DNA of 64,000 bases from Allacma fusca (lineage: Eukaryota; Arthropoda; Collembola; Symphypleona; Sminthuridae), in assembly GCA_947179485.1 (NCBI GenBank), contig OX359248.1, positions 32,931,378 to 32,995,377 of the forward strand. Reading direction: 5' to 3'. The notes under the pieces are model-generated. The model made no database searches. It had not been told where the DNA came from and worked only from the letters and a program-made list of their open reading frames with translations. Numbering within the stretch: the first letter of the stretch is position 1; every line of letters begins with the position of its first letter. This document shows positions 701 through 9,440 of this stretch, one piece after another. The position numbers and the translations under genes are program-made.

Positions 701-3700
701 ATGCTGCCACTGCTGATAATTTTGGCTGCGAAGTTATTCGGGGATAATGGTGACCTGAAGCCTCCTAATATTTCGATCGGTGTTTGGTTGCCTACTGGCA
801 CTTTATCGTGGTCCTATAATGATGTACCGGAAGGCGTCAAAATTGAGAACAACTCAATTTCGGTGCCGTCAAATATGGATGGTATAAGGTTTTTGTGTAA
901 CGCCTCGTATCCCATCCAATGGGACTTTGCAGCGGATAGCGTATGTATTGCTTATTTCTTCCGTTCTATGTTGTATGATCATGATATTTCAGTTAAAAAC
1001 CTGGTTGCAGATAAACATCACTTGCTTAAATTTGTAGATAAATGACGATCGCCGGAGAAAGCACACAATGGACCATCTGGTGAAAAATATTAGACAGGCG
1101 GCCGACATTTTTAACAAATCTACTTATGAGTACATTGCAGAGCTTCAGTTATTTGGAGAGGATATCACATTAACCAGAAATTATTCATGCAGAAGCTCCG
1201 AGGACCCTTCACTTATGTCTTGGATTTACGTATTTTGGGAAGGTATAGTTGTCGAATAACCGCCGAACCCCTGGTGCATACACAACTTCGCACGTGTTGA
1301 GGAAACTATATTTATATTTTTTCCACAGGTAGTTCTCCTCCTTATCTCCTGGATTATAATGAAACAACGGTTGTCTACGTTGGATCTAACCCAGGTCATC
1401 GTTCCAAAGAAAATGAAATGGTGAAGGTTGTGCTGCCATGCCGAGTATCTGTTCGAACAGTTAATGTTCAACTTCAGAAAAGAAAGAATGGTGTATGGAT
1501 TTTATGTAAAAAATCATTCATTGGAACAAAATGCAAGCAGGAAGTCATGTGTTATTTGGTTTTGATTAGACATGGAGAAGTTTGGCTAATACGGAATTCG
1601 CAACCTACGATCCTTACACGGGTTTTACAGTTGAGACTTACCGAGAGACTGTTTTTGGGGTATATCAATGTGTTGTTCCGGACAGCCCTGTCGACGATCA
1701 GCGAATAGTCATTGTCAGAGAGGGAGAGCGTAAGTGTATTAAACTTCGGGCACCATATTAGAAAAATAATGATACAAATATGTATTAACAGCAGTAATAA
1801 TGTTTCTTAGCTCGTTCTCAACCACCGTTCCATGAGTTTGTCCAAGGCAACGCTTCATTTGCATATAATAACTACACCAATACATTCACTTGCTGCTCAG
1901 ATAATTGGCAACCACCGGCTATGCAAATAGTTTATTGTGATCATCCTACTCTTTGTGATACCAAGAAGAAGGTCTTGGACAGAGTTAGTGCCGTTTTCAG
2001 AAATGTTACTTTATTTGTTTACGGATCATGCTAATACTAAGATTTGAATTTTAAACTTTTCAGATTGTAAGCAACGGCAGACGCCACATTGGCAAAAGCT
2101 GCACGAGTTCTAAAATACGATTTGAGACATCTGGTATTTTGAAGTGTGTAGGAAGTGGCATTAGTGTTTTTCGAGAGTATTTCTTTCCAGTGTCTCTGGG
2201 TCTGAGCAGCATTTTGTTTCGGAAGAACAACCGTGCGCTTCCAAAAGTAGAGGGCGTGCCTTGTAAGACAAGTTTTTGTAACTCGTGTGTGTTATAACCG
2301 CTACCATTGTTAGATTTTGACTAATTTTACGTTTTGCATATTCTTTTCTTCACAATAATTAGACTATCACTGGGAAGACGTGAACCCCGTGGAAATGATT
2401 TCAATTGAATCATCGAGGAATAACCCGGTAATATTTGCAGGGCAGTCATTAACTCTGAAGTGTAAACCATCCCAGTACTATTTTGCACAAGGGGCTAAAT
2501 GGCTTTTAACGTGGAGCAACCATTCTAGGCTTGTCATGGATGGTGAGATTGTTGAAATTACTGTTAGAATCTGCAAACGAGATTCGGGTCTTTTGGTTAT
2601 GAATAACTTGCAATTTTTGTGAACCAGGAGCGGAATCCTCACCGCTGCTTTCAACGTCCATGCTAAATTCACGAGACTCTAATATTGATATTACTGTTGG
2701 TGCTAATTTAACTCAAATAGCTTGTGTTGCTCCTGTGTGGAATTCAAGTCAGTATGTTATCAAGACGGTTTATCTTAATGTAACTTGTAAGTTTGGAAAT
2801 TATTGAAAGTTGTGATGATATGCATTACATATTACAGTCAAAGGTTTGTATCCTCGAATGTCATTGTTCTGCTTTTTTAGTGCCAACAAGGCCCTCTGTC
2901 GACGGTTCTGAGGAGAACATTATTGTTCCTAGCATCTTCTGGTATGTAAATGAAACTAAAAAGTCATTAGCGTGTTTCGCCAAGGGACTTCCACTACCAA
3001 CAGTCATTTGGAAGCATGATGGAACGGTGAGTGGTTCTGGAAAGCTTTCGTAAAACTATTCAAATTTTGTCTGTTTCTGTGGCTATTGAATTAAGGGATT
3101 ACTCAGATATTCAAAGCATAGTTACTGTATATATTTCAAGAGATTAATCTTGGCCGCAATATAAGTAATATCATATAAACGATTAGTTTAATATGTTTAA
3201 CAAATCGAGAGTATTATTAGTAAGTCATTTTATATATAATATAATTTCTTTACAATTTTTTATTCTCTTAGATTGTTTCCAAACAGCGAAGCTTCAATGG
3301 AACATCAATGTTGAACTTTACTACTGTGAATTTCACCAGTCACGGGGAATATGTATGCAAGGTGATCAATGTGGCTGGTCAGGTGACGAAAACGTTTCAT
3401 ATAAACTTAAAAAGTACGTTATAGTTATTATTTCTTTACCTCTCAGTTTTTCCAGTAACTATGTTAATAATGTGCATAAATAAGACAATTGAGAATCTCG
3501 CCTGTTCTGTTAGAATTTTAAACAGTAAAAGGATTTACGAAAGCTTATTATTGTGACGTTATTTTTCAGTTGATGTCCCATCTACCGGATGGGTTACTGG
3601 GATCGTCCTTCTAACCTTACTTTCCCTACTGACCATTATAATACTTGGGTTTTTGGTGAAACGAGTTCGAGATCAAGCAACATCTTTAAACAGTCTGAGA

Positions 3701-3877
3701 ACTGTTGCTTTTAAGGATGTTCTTGAGCAACAACATGGGTTTGCTTTTACAAATTCGGAAAATAATTTGGAGGCAACAACTGATGATGGAGATATGAATA
3801 TTAAATATGAAAATGCTAACGAAGTGTTGTCAAGCTTCTCAATTCACCAGAAGAATGTAAGCTACCAAAGATTCTGA
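701..3877 (+). CDS. PDGF/VEGF-receptor-like Ig-domain transmembrane receptor without a kinase
   Basis: Eleven exons: 701-940, 1038-1242, 1329-1492, 1570-1729, 1811-1983, 2064-2262, 2363-2542, 2628-2786, 2881-3026, 3272-3413, 3570-3877. All introns are GT..AG, phases agree, and the sum of 2076 nt gives 691 residues. The start is the first ATG and opens a signal peptide (MLPLLIILAAKLF). Residues about 30-590 carry successive Ig-like domains. Domain 1 ends NYSC..IYVFWEG and domain 2 has VVLPCRV, a GFTVETY strand and VYQCVV, the pattern of VEGF/PDGF receptor domains 1-2. The last Ig has SLACFAKGLPLPTVIW and GEYVCKVINVAG. A membrane helix follows at about 597-618 with a VKRVR stop-transfer, then only about 73 cytoplasmic residues. 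The usual split tyrosine kinase is absent from the open frame. Many NxS/T sites suit an extracellular protein. By family it would bind PVF/VEGF-like ligands at the cell surface; acting as a ligand trap or decoy is inference. Some exon ends (exons 1 and 3) are less certain than others. Confidence 0.82.
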
Positions 3878-4040
3878 AAACCTTCAACATTACCATATGA
3901 TGCAAGTACAATTCTGAAGGGATTGTAGATTGTTGGTGATTAAGAGTTTATAAAATGAAAATTGACAGGATAGTCCTTAATAACTTTAAAATTTCAAACT
4001 GGGATTATGTATGAAGTACCTATATATTTTAAATTTTCGA

Positions 4041-4046
4041 AATAAA
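4041..4046 (+). promoter_or_regulatory. poly(A) signal AATAAA after the receptor stop
   Basis: A canonical AATAAA lies about 165 nt after the receptor stop codon, before the kinase-like remnants. If used, it ends the transcript upstream of them, which fits a receptor that no longer includes the kinase. Confidence 0.5.
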
Positions 4047-4086
4047 TCTAAATACTACTCTTATGCTTTGGAATTCCCGATCAAAG

Positions 4087-4686
4087 TCATCAAAACCTAC
4101 CCCAAACAGTGCTATTCCCTATAATGAATCATTCGCTGGGATACCGAAAAACCTTTTGCGATCTTCTGTCGTTTACTTACTTACCCGTAAGTGTGCATCA
4201 ATTTTCACCCTTACAAAACATTTTCGGTCTGCTCATTGTAAAAATACTCTTGTGAAATTTTCAAATATGAAATTTAATATTATTGATAATAAAAAGAAAG
4301 GAAGTTTAATATTGCTAAATTTCATAGAACCAAGAATAAAGCTGGAGCGACTTGAAAGATAAATGACGCCGTTTTGGTTTATGCCGGAGATATTTATTAC
4401 GCAGACCCAGGTCAATTACAACAGATACTCAATGTAACAAGTTCGATCACCTCTTGACCGACATTGCCAACGGGATATTTAATCTAACTAATAAATATTG
4501 CTTTCTTCATGTACGTATGGGGCAGTAAAAGTAGGAAAAGGGGAATCGAGCTTCCGACCGAAAATCTATCATCCCCATTGCTCCAAGTTTAGCCTTTTAA
4601 CTGCATGTTCAGTAGTACAATCGAAGTATTTTTCCATGTTGAGATTTACACAGAGATTCGAAACATTAGCCGATTTGATTATGTAA
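4087..4686 (+). pseudogene. eroded receptor tyrosine kinase remnant
   Basis: Three separate pieces resemble a class III/V receptor kinase in the right order. At 4087-4184, between a possible acceptor and a GTAAGT donor, the frame reads IPYNESFAGIPKNLL, like the juxtamembrane/kinase lead LPYDxxWEFPRxxLxLG. At about 4444-4512 the frame reads LLTDIANGIFNLTNKYCFLH, like the helix E and catalytic-loop entry (QIAxGMxFLxxKxFLHRDL). At about 4519-4683 the frame reads KVGKGESSFRPK..HCSKFSLLTACSVV..RFTQRFETLADLI, like the C-lobe tail (LxxGxRMxRPxxCPxxLYxLMxxCW..RPxFxxLxxxLxxLL). The glycine loop, VAIK, DFG, APE and helix F motifs are not visible, and only a few bases separate pieces two and three. It could not encode a working kinase. 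Each match is weak alone; the order and position beside the receptor make the case. A chance resemblance remains possible. Confidence 0.45.
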
Positions 4687-5427: not shown

Positions 5428-7293
5428 TTAAAAAGCCATTGGTGTTGGATGTCCATTTGCACCCAACAAATGATCGGCTGCAGTGAGCTCTTTAGGACCC
5501 TCACCAATTTTAGTGTGCACTGTGTAACGAAGGGCATTAGGGTCCCACGGGGTTCTTTCAACTATTTTCGGCAACTTTTTCTACAAGTTAAAAATTTAAA
5601 ATTTAATCACTTATACCTCTAGTTTTTAACTCACATTCCCATGTATAAATAATTTCACAATACAAACCTCCAGTTGACTATCTAAAGTGACCGGAATTCC
5701 AGTGAAATAAGTATCAGCATTTTGAGTGGTGGGAAAGACATGATTAACTGCAGCCAAAACAAGTGGCACATGTTCTTCCAGCAAATACAAACATGCATTT
5801 GGGCCTGCATCAAATGTGTATGCTACCTGCACAATCATGGAAAAGTCATAATTGTAGCATCATACATGAACTTTCTTAAACCAAAAATATAAATTTGTAA
5901 GACTATTACAATGGTTTTTCCAGCTTCCTCGTTGATCTGGTGAATAAGATCCGAAATGGCATGAGAAACTTCGGACATGTACACCAAAGGTGGGTACGTG
6001 TCTAAACAGACAGCATGGAACTGGTTGCTATCTTGCATCGTAATGTCAGCGAAAGTTTTGAAATCCTTGTTGTAGATCGCCTGTAAGCAATTTTAAAATT
6101 ATAAATTTAGCCTATTAGACATTTTTTTACTATTAGGATTACATATGTATTCCTTAAATAGTTACCTGCTTGATATCAGCAAGACGTTTAGGCACAACCT
6201 GAGAAACTCGTGTTTTGAGTAATTCACTGGTTGCCACACTAGTCTGCATACCCGCCGTACTCCCAGTTTTCTTCTTGTTTTCGCTGACCTGCAGTATCAC
6301 ACAGAATTAACAATTATTTCACCCAGCTCTCATCTTTACACGATAACGTTAACTCAGCAAAAATATAATTACTCAACTTACTACAAGTATAAGGACTCTC
6401 ATTTCGTTCCAATGATTTGAATCCACAACCTGCACAGCACAGGAGTCAGTCCCATCGTTCTTATCTCCAGCAATCCATTCCACGAAACCCCCATAAATAC
6501 TCCGACAGGCACTTCCAGATCCCTGCCGAGCAATCGAAGAGATATCCCCATCCAGCTGATATAATTTAGACAATGAAGCCACTGCAAAGGACAAACCAAT
6601 TGACTTCAATTCTTTTTTGTAAACGTAAATTCATCTAAATATATAATAATTTACCTAAGCAAGCATATCCCGCAGCAGATGATGCTAGCCCAGCTGCAGT
6701 GGGGAAATTATTAACCGAACAAATGTGTACATTATATTCCAGCTCCTCCGGGGATATTTTCCCCTGTTCTTTAGCCCTTCTTCGAACTATCGAATGATAA
6801 ACATGATTACTACAAATTATCCCCCGTCCTCATATTATAAAAATGTTATAACAAATCCTTCCAAAATCTCCCAGTCACACCTTCATTAAGACAGTTAATC
6901 AAACGCCGGTTCTCAAAAGTTTCTTCCACCCCGTTGAGCCATATTCTGTTTCTAGTGAAATTCCGACTAAAAGAAACAGTAGTTTTGGCACACATCTACA
7001 AAAAATGTCTCATAATAATGCACCTTGAATAAGTACAATTATTAATTAATAATACACCAAATTTACTTGGTTCGTTGATAACGTGCCACTGATTGAGCCA
7101 TTCAAAGGTAATATCAGGTTCTCATCCCTTTTCCCCCCTAATAAACAAAATACCGGGCAATTATTAACTTCTACTCAAAAATAATTCCATTCTTATACTC
7201 GGAAAAAAAAACCCTCCACATAAATCTCTTACAATATTTAATCACAGCAATATTCACAGGTGCGACAACAGTGACCATTCGTAAAGTCTCCAT
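5428..7293 (-). CDS. MVD: mevalonate diphosphate decarboxylase
   Basis: This cytosolic GHMP-superfamily enzyme converts mevalonate 5-diphosphate plus ATP to isopentenyl diphosphate, CO2, ADP and phosphate, the last step of the mevalonate pathway. Nine exons on the minus strand (7233-7293, 7067-7137, 6881-6995, 6655-6786, 6382-6581, 6166-6288, 5910-6080, 5668-5826, 5428-5580) have GT..AG introns and consistent phases and sum to 1185 nt, 394 residues, the normal family length. Visible signatures are [18 protein letters not shown] (about 11-28), ISGTLS (about 36-41), the ATP-binding loop [15 protein letters not shown] (about 109-123), [16 protein letters not shown] (about 141-156), [17 protein letters not shown] in exon 7 and [10 protein letters not shown] in exon 8 with the catalytic Asp. 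The C-terminus ends NGHPTPMAF. The ATG at 7293 gives the canonical [14 protein letters not shown] start. Arthropods lack sterol synthesis, so the product would feed dolichol, quinones, prenylation and terpenoid hormones. No defect seen. Confidence 0.97.
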
Positions 7294-9440
7294 TTCTAAA
7301 GGTCAATGAAAGGTCCGAATCCGAAGTAGCGCTGGAGATTGTTTTTTTAATTTAAACCAAGGCTGGCTGATTGAATGGACGGATCAAATCCCAGGTTCAT
7401 TAATTTGTGGCTTCCTAAAAATAAAAAAATTAAATACATTACGAAACGAACTAGTTTAACAAATAGAAATAAAAACATGCATGCTGTAATTACACGAGTC
7501 ATTACATTGGAACTAAGGAATTGACTTAAGTATTTACAAAGCGAGTACCTTTTAAGAAATGGAGTAAGTACAAGAATAATTATTTGAACAATAGGTCTTT
7601 CTAGAATGATGACAATATTGATACCTATTTCAGAACAGCCAAGGCCAAAGAGCAAGTCTATAAAAGCACATTACAATGCGGCTTACAAATTTCCATGTGA
7701 AATAATTACTTTTAGGGGGTTAACACAAAACCCAAAACCAGTATTGTGTGTGAACACTGTGCAAAACTAAAAATACTATTCTAGTCAGTCAAATGTTACC
7801 TGGGGAGGAAGCCCAAGCGAACAACATCTGATTGAAACTTCACTCTACAACAAAAACAAATAAACGTACATACTCTGTATGGCACAGTGCACATGCCTTT
7901 TTTACATGCAAGGGAGAAGTGCTCGGCGCGGGTAAGAGCATTCCGTACCCGTCTTGCTATTAATACAAACATTAAACAATTTTAATAGTAGATATTATTA
8001 TTAAAATTAACAATAATACTCACATAATAATGCAAAGTAGTACATTAGGAATTTAAACAATTTCTTGGGATTATTGCTATTAAGAGTTATTGATGTCTGT
8101 AATATAATCATTATTAAATAAGCAAGTTTGCAGTAATTACTCAAATGTGAGTATTTCTCGCTAATTTTTGCTCACCTGAATTATTTTACCAGGTTTTGAC
8201 TTCCAGACATAAAATACCTTTGAACAGTTTAATGTAGTCCTTTATTGTTAATTTATGTCAGTGGCAAGCACTGTTGTCTCTCACAGTTAGAGGACAAGCA
8301 AGGGAGAAAAACATGATTTTGTAATAGGGATTATGAAATATCCATGTAGTTGTAGCAATTCACACGACTTTGTGGTCATGATATTTCAGAAAAACTATGA
8401 GTATGATGAGCGAAGTTTAATAAAAAATCCTCACATTCTGTGTAAGGAAGTTGAGGAGTACGTAAGATATCAAAGGTAAAATATTACCTCAAACCCAAGT
8501 AGATATGCAACGCACATAGTAGTGTTTTCCTTTTCGTGTAAAAAATTGTTGTTTTCAAGTATCTTTCAATTTGGATTTTTGGTGTAAAAATTTAGGCTTC
8601 CTATCTTTTTTGGGAAGTTTTCAATTTATTTGAGAATATTTACGGGAAAGGGTAGAGAGTTGCAAATTATCGTGATTACCTGGTTTCAAGAGGTACTGGA
8701 ATGAGTAATTACGTCCCTGAACAGGTATTTAGTCTTAAAAAGCAAGCGACTACATGTTGCCTGTGCTTATAACTGGATCTGTATCCATAATTTTTTCATG
8801 GAGAGAATGTACACCCTAAACACCACCAAAAAGTATTAGTAAAGTAAATATCCGTATTCGGTTTCCCCCTGACAATGCACGATTCCACGTTGTAGCGATG
8901 AAGACAATGTTGACCAAAAGGGTTATGGTTTTGAATTAATTTAAAGGTTGTCATCAGGAACGAAAGGTTGTGCTTTGTTTAAGATATATATTTTTGGTTG
9001 CTGCAATCCCAATTCTTGACTTGTAGGCTATGATAATATTAATGCAATGCAAATGAATCCTTATGGAATTTTCTGCAAGCCGATGATTTGAAATGTTTTT
9101 TTAATGGCTTTCTATAGACTAGATAAGATGACATCAGAAATTGTTCATACTCCGCATTTGCTTCGATTTCTCTCCTTGAGAGTAATTTCTTCCATCTTGC
9201 TCCCCGTCTTTTCCGCTCATGACACCAATTCTCAGTGGAGCAAGCGATCAAATAGCTGTCTGGAAAACTTGTCAATCTCCTACAACCGAAAGTCAAAACA
9301 TTTTGTGAAAAAAAGAAATTGATATTTTAAAAAATTATTCTCGAATTTTTTCATGTTTCTGAACCCGGTGACCTCAAATATTAACCCAGGCCAATGAAAC
9401 AAATTTTAGGAAATCTGGAACTAAATAAAACTAAACTACA
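7294..9440. other. upstream flank of MVD, no gene recognised
   Basis: The MVD promoter and any leader exon should lie at the low end of this stretch. A 102-codon frame at 7347-7655 (minus) and two antisense-paired frames near 9040-9320 have no recognisable domain and no good splice context. A short GC-richer patch at about 7925-7960 stands out from the AT-rich surroundings but matches no RNA gene I can identify. Confidence 0.5.

Follow-up and report, generated by a model that had tools for sequence, protein, structure and literature searches.

Receptors of the vertebrate PDGF/VEGF family contain five to seven Ig-like domains, and VEGF is bound through domain 2. Two of their relatives, sFlt1 (soluble VEGFR1) and PDGFRL, consist of a VEGFR/PDGFR-type ectodomain without kinase; both are secreted, and sFlt1 is made by alternative splicing. 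In the insulin-receptor family, insect decoy receptors are reportedly non-signalling forms that sequester ligand. DAF-2B, a splice form in the same family, is likewise described as a non-signalling receptor that sequesters its ligand (PMC7041946), and FGFRL1/nou-darake, a membrane-anchored family member without kinase, has been proposed to be a decoy, its FGFR-type ectodomain comprising three Ig domains, or two in insects, in the account given there (PMC2754479). Arthropod PVRs (Pvr) combine a VEGFR/PDGFR-type Ig ectodomain and one membrane helix with a tyrosine kinase carrying HGDLA...PxKW, the HGDLA catalytic loop with RN being their mark according to PMC11024359. The transcriptome figures of that source (two branchiopod species with 61 PVR sequences between them, three hexapods with 17) give growth of the PVR family a precedent in some crustaceans. 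Another classification reports its PVR kinase subgroup from deuterostomes only (PMC8662651), so that PVR as an arthropod name is not agreed by all.

Kinase-less relatives of receptor tyrosine kinases are an already known kind, and as separate, membrane-anchored genes they are known for FGF receptors. Here we describe a gene from chromosome 4 of Allacma fusca, located in a 64-kb stretch called the window below. It shares the type of ectodomain and the single membrane helix with the arthropod PVRs but has no tyrosine kinase. Like FGFRL1, its product is a single-pass membrane protein without kinase, whereas its five Ig domains, their class III/V type and the presence of several gene copies set it apart from FGFRL1; from sFlt1 and PDGFRL it differs as a separate gene carrying its own membrane anchor. 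In the open-licence literature we found no description of a kinase-less, membrane-anchored PVR/VEGFR gene set in arthropods, nor of a PVR or tyrosine-kinase expansion in springtails. A set of this kind in the PDGF/VEGF family would mean that evolution had arrived at this solution once more, here beside 86 copies of the kinase loop, and would offer in Allacma fusca a natural test of how decoy and signalling classes evolve side by side.

Gene model and type of ectodomain

The gene occupies window positions 701-3877 on the plus strand and consists of 11 exons, which upon joining yield 691 codons followed by a stop, with no internal stop (Table 1). All ten introns are of the GT-AG type and 77-245 bp long, their phases are 0,1,0,1,0,1,1,1,0,1 in order, and intron 5 has a weak donor (GTTAGT). 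Exon borders were picked by hand on the three-frame translation; a spliced-alignment script fed with the window protein returned identical exons, which is circular for the window, but the script also recovers a matching exon plan in the paralogues. Homology with four paralogues at other genomic sites excludes that the model arose by chance. Behind a putative signal peptide (MLPLLIILAAKLFG..., judged from sequence alone) lie five Ig-like domains, recognised by their cysteine and exon pairs, each encoded by two exons and separated from its neighbour by a phase-1 intron, followed by a single membrane helix with a hydrophobic core at aa 601-619 (hydropathy). Several Ig-like domains and one membrane helix are the layout of the class III/V receptor family. 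The AATAAA at 4041 is the first of three in 3871-4400, a motif that is frequent by chance in AT-rich DNA. The neighbouring gene, at about 5440-7300 on the minus strand, encodes mevalonate diphosphate decarboxylase, to judge from the domains MDD_C and MVD-like_N, which are present in two of its exon ORFs.

Table 1. Features of the kinase-less receptor gene (window positions) and its kinase-less paralogues (chromosomal positions)
Feature	Position	Strand	Description
Exon 1	701-940	+	With exon 2: signal peptide (putative) and Ig-like domain 1
Exon 2	1038-1242	+	Completes Ig-like domain 1, Cys66-Cys131
Exon 3	1329-1492	+	With exon 4: Ig-like domain 2, Cys186-Cys237
Exon 4	1570-1729	+	Completes Ig-like domain 2
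Exon 5	1811-1983	+	With exon 6: Ig-like domain 3, extra cysteines
Exon 6	2064-2262	+	Completes Ig-like domain 3
Exon 7	2363-2542	+	With exon 8: Ig-like domain 4, Cys414-Cys473
Exon 8	2628-2786	+	Completes Ig-like domain 4
Exon 9	2881-3026	+	With exon 10: membrane-proximal Ig domain, Cys525-Cys571
Exon 10	3272-3413	+	Completes membrane-proximal Ig domain (Ig_3, E 1.4e-11)
Exon 11	3570-3877	+	Membrane helix, 72-aa cytoplasmic tail, stop TGA 3875-3877
GTAAGC donor-like site	3857-3862	+	Within tail; could lead to an overlooked exon further on
AATAAA	4041-4046	+	164 bp past stop; possible polyadenylation signal
29a, 30b	chromosome 3, 7.767-7.779 Mb		Tandem pair, kinase-less
L031	chromosome 3, 39.31 Mb		Kinase-less paralogue; gene start unplaced in model
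L032	chromosome 3, 61.46 Mb		Kinase-less paralogue

A Pfam search of the window protein identified the membrane-proximal Ig domain at aa 519-587. Domain 2, which contains a YDPYTGFTV stretch, was matched at aa 180-237 by PF21339 (VEGFR-1-like Ig), with an E of 6.4e-5 and 23.1 bits, under the curated cut-off of 27; in the family alignment A1, made of five kinase-less proteins and one kinase gene, the same domain was found at E <=0.1 in 6/6 rows (best E 4.6e-7). A whole-length family profile retrieved chiefly generic Ig proteins, VEGFR2 (2.7e-32) and VEGFR1 (4.6e-23) included, and therefore a profile confined to D1/D2 was built from the window protein and the four kinase-less paralogues and compared with the PDB at E up to 10. 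The top 23 of its 71 matches are all VEGFR1/2/3, PDGFR alpha/beta, CSF1R or KIT, led by VEGFR1 (E 1.9e-14), and antibodies and others rank after them. No FGFR was among the best 60 of the 71 matches, so that the ectodomain is not of the FGFR type found in FGFRL1, although FGFR2 does match the last, generic Ig domain of the window protein. By the D1/D2 profile, with the PF21339 match of the window row itself below cut-off, D1 and D2 are of the VEGFR/PDGFR type. The original prediction of eleven open, in-phase and correctly spliced exons encoding a PDGF/VEGF-receptor-type ectodomain, a membrane helix and about 73 cytoplasmic residues is thus upheld by the joined 691 aa, the intron borders, the D1/D2 profile and PF21339, with the helix present and the tail one residue shorter.

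Kinase-less paralogues and the absence of a kinase

Rather than standing alone as a truncated Pvr, the window gene has company: Allacma fusca carries at least five genes of this kind, all membrane-anchored and without kinase. The four paralogues were recovered by protein searches of the genome and spliced alignment, and five is a lower bound, single-protein searches having limited reach. Each paralogue has Ig domains, a membrane helix, a short tail and a stop. Counting starts at the alignment column that holds window aa 621, and by this measure the tails of 29a, 30b, L031 and L032 are 31, 31, 47 and 16 aa long; the four proteins are 27, 27, 24 and 28% identical to the window protein. The tandem pair 29a/30b has no intron inside domain 2 and terminates at the same aligned column, while the L032 model contains one extra intron in the domain 4 region, where it is least sure. 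The tails are the least alike part of the kinase-less proteins (mean pairwise identity 0.22 vs 0.27-0.33 for the outer domains), which indicates the outside as the working part, and by eye they have no evident motif in common.

As an alternative, the window gene might be a decaying or silent copy that is still open by chance. In 4/4 comparisons of the window gene with a paralogue, differences are fewest at codon position 2 and most numerous at position 3. Third positions of the window gene are near saturation against every paralogue, and the sole pairwise dN/dS estimate is that of 29a vs 30b (608 codons, about 52-53% identical, dN 0.367, dS 2.40 and itself near-saturated, NG86), which shows constraint on these two genes. 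At 0.05 neutral changes per site, the window gene would be expected to have gained about 4.4 stops, with a probability of 0.012 for none; the frame has none, its splice sites are intact and the same kinase-less plan is kept in four sister genes. We regard a decaying copy as very unlikely, and the codon pattern and open frame show a gene apparently under constraint until recently.

For the kinase itself, a profile was made from two kinase-bearing relatives (L033 and L036, see below) and the Src-like gene L001 of the same genome and run on six-frame ORFs. At E up to 1, it found nothing in the 64-kb window or the 10 kb upstream of it, and nothing at the four paralogues or at two further relatives, L041 and L042. 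The positives of this first run (L033, L034 and L036) were profile sources or a near copy, hence the run was repeated: 9/9 kinase loci outside the profile were detected (L043/44, L045 and L002-L008), against 0 matches in 7/7 kinase-less sources (window, upstream DNA, paralogue loci, L041 and L042). On the downstream side, the search extended over 60 kb behind the window gene and over 5, 4 and 2 kb behind 30b, L031 and L032, respectively; behind 29a it covered about 3.8 kb, as far as the next copy. A genome-wide PF07714 search, in which 118 of 854 candidates were scored, placed none inside the window among the matches listed. The HGDLA...RN loop was also sought as a codon pattern, which detects this loop only and counts copies rather than intact genes, across the whole genome (392.74 Mb in 91 contigs). 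No PVR-type loop lies within 1.9 Mb of the window gene, the nearest ones on chromosome 4 being at 28.26 and 34.91 Mb, and the loop nearest the chromosome 3 paralogues is >0.7 Mb off. By profile and codon pattern, the window gene thus has no kinase with HGDLA...PxKW of the kind that defines a PVR receptor tyrosine kinase.

A kinase could still be restored by a missed downstream exon, spliced from inside exon 11. The donor-like GTAAGC at 3857 would provide the exit, and there is a weak resemblance between the window tail and the L033 juxtamembrane, with shuffled sequences scoring as well in 28/1000 cases locally and 53/1000 globally. Against this, 60 kb of downstream sequence yielded no kinase exon, and the decarboxylase gene on the opposite strand comes next, at about 5.4-7.3 kb. 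The closest HGDLA loops on the chromosome are those at 28.26 and 34.91 Mb, and the sister genes likewise stop soon past the helix. We hold a missed exon to be highly improbable. The absence of a kinase, as originally proposed, is therefore borne out by the profile within the window and by the loop pattern over 1.9 Mb, and the window gene is very probably a real kinase-less receptor.

The same tail comparison covered five kinase-less tails and five kinase-gene juxtamembranes, aligned locally and globally with 1000 shuffles each. The window tail was no better than chance against the other four juxtamembranes, and some other tails reached 8-38/1000 in single pairs, those of 30b and L031 being best. 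With 50 comparisons made, we do not claim that the tail is a relic of a pre-kinase juxtamembrane.

Kinase-bearing relatives and proposed role

A kinase-bearing Pvr paralogue elsewhere in the genome, the search for which had been suggested as a check, exists in several forms: PVR-type relatives were found at L033/L034, L036, L043/L044 and L045. In L033 (chromosome 1, 14.07 Mb), an ectodomain belonging to this family precedes a tyrosine kinase, for which one EGFR entry ranks first in the PDB, with VEGFR2 and VEGFR1 next; L036, two copies in L043/L044, and L045 also have HGDLA kinases. With the window gene, L033 has the phases 0,1,0 over domains 1-2 in common, and L043 the last three phases 1,0,1. 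Across the genome, the PVR catalytic loop HGDL-A-[A/T/S]-RN has 86 exact matches, with 0 for a reversed-pattern control. They fall on contigs C1 (17), C5 (1), C8 (29), C9 (2), C10 (19) and C12 (18), many of them clustered, and six were examined more closely. This points to a very large expansion of PVR kinases, the figure counting loops and not intact genes. On the ligand side, two partial matches to the PDGF domain exceed the cut-off in the genome.

On whether the kinase-less genes share one origin, three trees contradict each other and are weakly supported. In a 7-row tree, 76% of bootstrap replicates have a branch that separates the kinase-less genes from the rest, and 24% do once L041 is added; in a 10-row tree of the membrane-proximal region with four more kinase genes the grouping is recovered in 4%.

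A family-type outside, a membrane helix, no kinase and short, divergent tails are most simply read as ligand binding without signalling of its own. Most likely, the window gene represents a genuine and ancient lineage of PVR receptors without kinase that works in the manner proposed for FGFRL1, as a sink or as a non-signalling partner. It encodes a cell-surface receptor of the arthropod PVR ectodomain family, its kinase lost or never present. If expressed, this receptor would bind extracellular ligands, of PVF type or related to it, and either limit them or accompany kinase-bearing PVRs, in both cases damping signalling. Its probable task is the capture of ligands, not signalling of its own. 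We favour a sink or partner role with some reserve, and the same reserve applies to the explanation as a whole, a kinase-less PVR-family receptor that binds ligand and acts in one of these two ways.

At about 24-28% identity to the window protein, the paralogues may bind different ligands, or serve in adhesion. The kinase-less genes might accordingly be PVR-derived recognition or adhesion receptors, their outer parts having diverged so as to bind other surface or immune ligands, and any signal passing via partner receptors. The very low identity among the five (with one tandem pair at about 52-53%), the size of this genome's PVR-type kinase family and the lack of an evident common tail motif would fit such receptors, but D1/D2 are still of class III/V type, with PF21339 in all rows of the alignment, and it is domain 2 that binds VEGF in the vertebrate relatives. 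We consider this rather unlikely. A broader picture can be drawn tentatively, as a possibility to which we give limited credence: springtails would have a greatly expanded PVR system in which ligand capture and signalling are split between gene classes, with immunity or tissue recognition as a conceivable setting. It would comprise up to 86 kinase receptors and an old, separate kinase-less class of at least five genes, together with a relative in which neither helix nor kinase is recognised and a possible secreted Ig-EGF relative.

Several further loci deserve mention. L033 and L034 are PVR-type kinase genes 57 kb apart on chromosome 1 (14.07 and 14.13 Mb) and 97% identical over the 197 aa that run from the last Ig domain up to where the kinase begins. 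L034 is interrupted by a stop immediately ahead of the membrane helix, so this copy could be dead, or else a haplotypic duplicate. L041 (3919-6524; chromosome 1, 24.757 Mb) contains exons for VEGFR-like Ig domains D1/D2, which match PF21339 below cut-off (E 2.2e-5), and has no kinase by profile and no membrane helix by eye. Directly behind these exons lies an ORF encoding both EGF modules and Dumpy DPY modules, a joint gene being only putative. In L042 (8258-3827, minus strand; contig C9, 44.756 Mb), family domains 1-4 are present (PF21339 E 4.5e-5, below cut-off), while a last Ig domain, helix and kinase were not recognised. About 2.3 kb further along the same strand lies an ORF that by eye resembles a Max-like bHLH.
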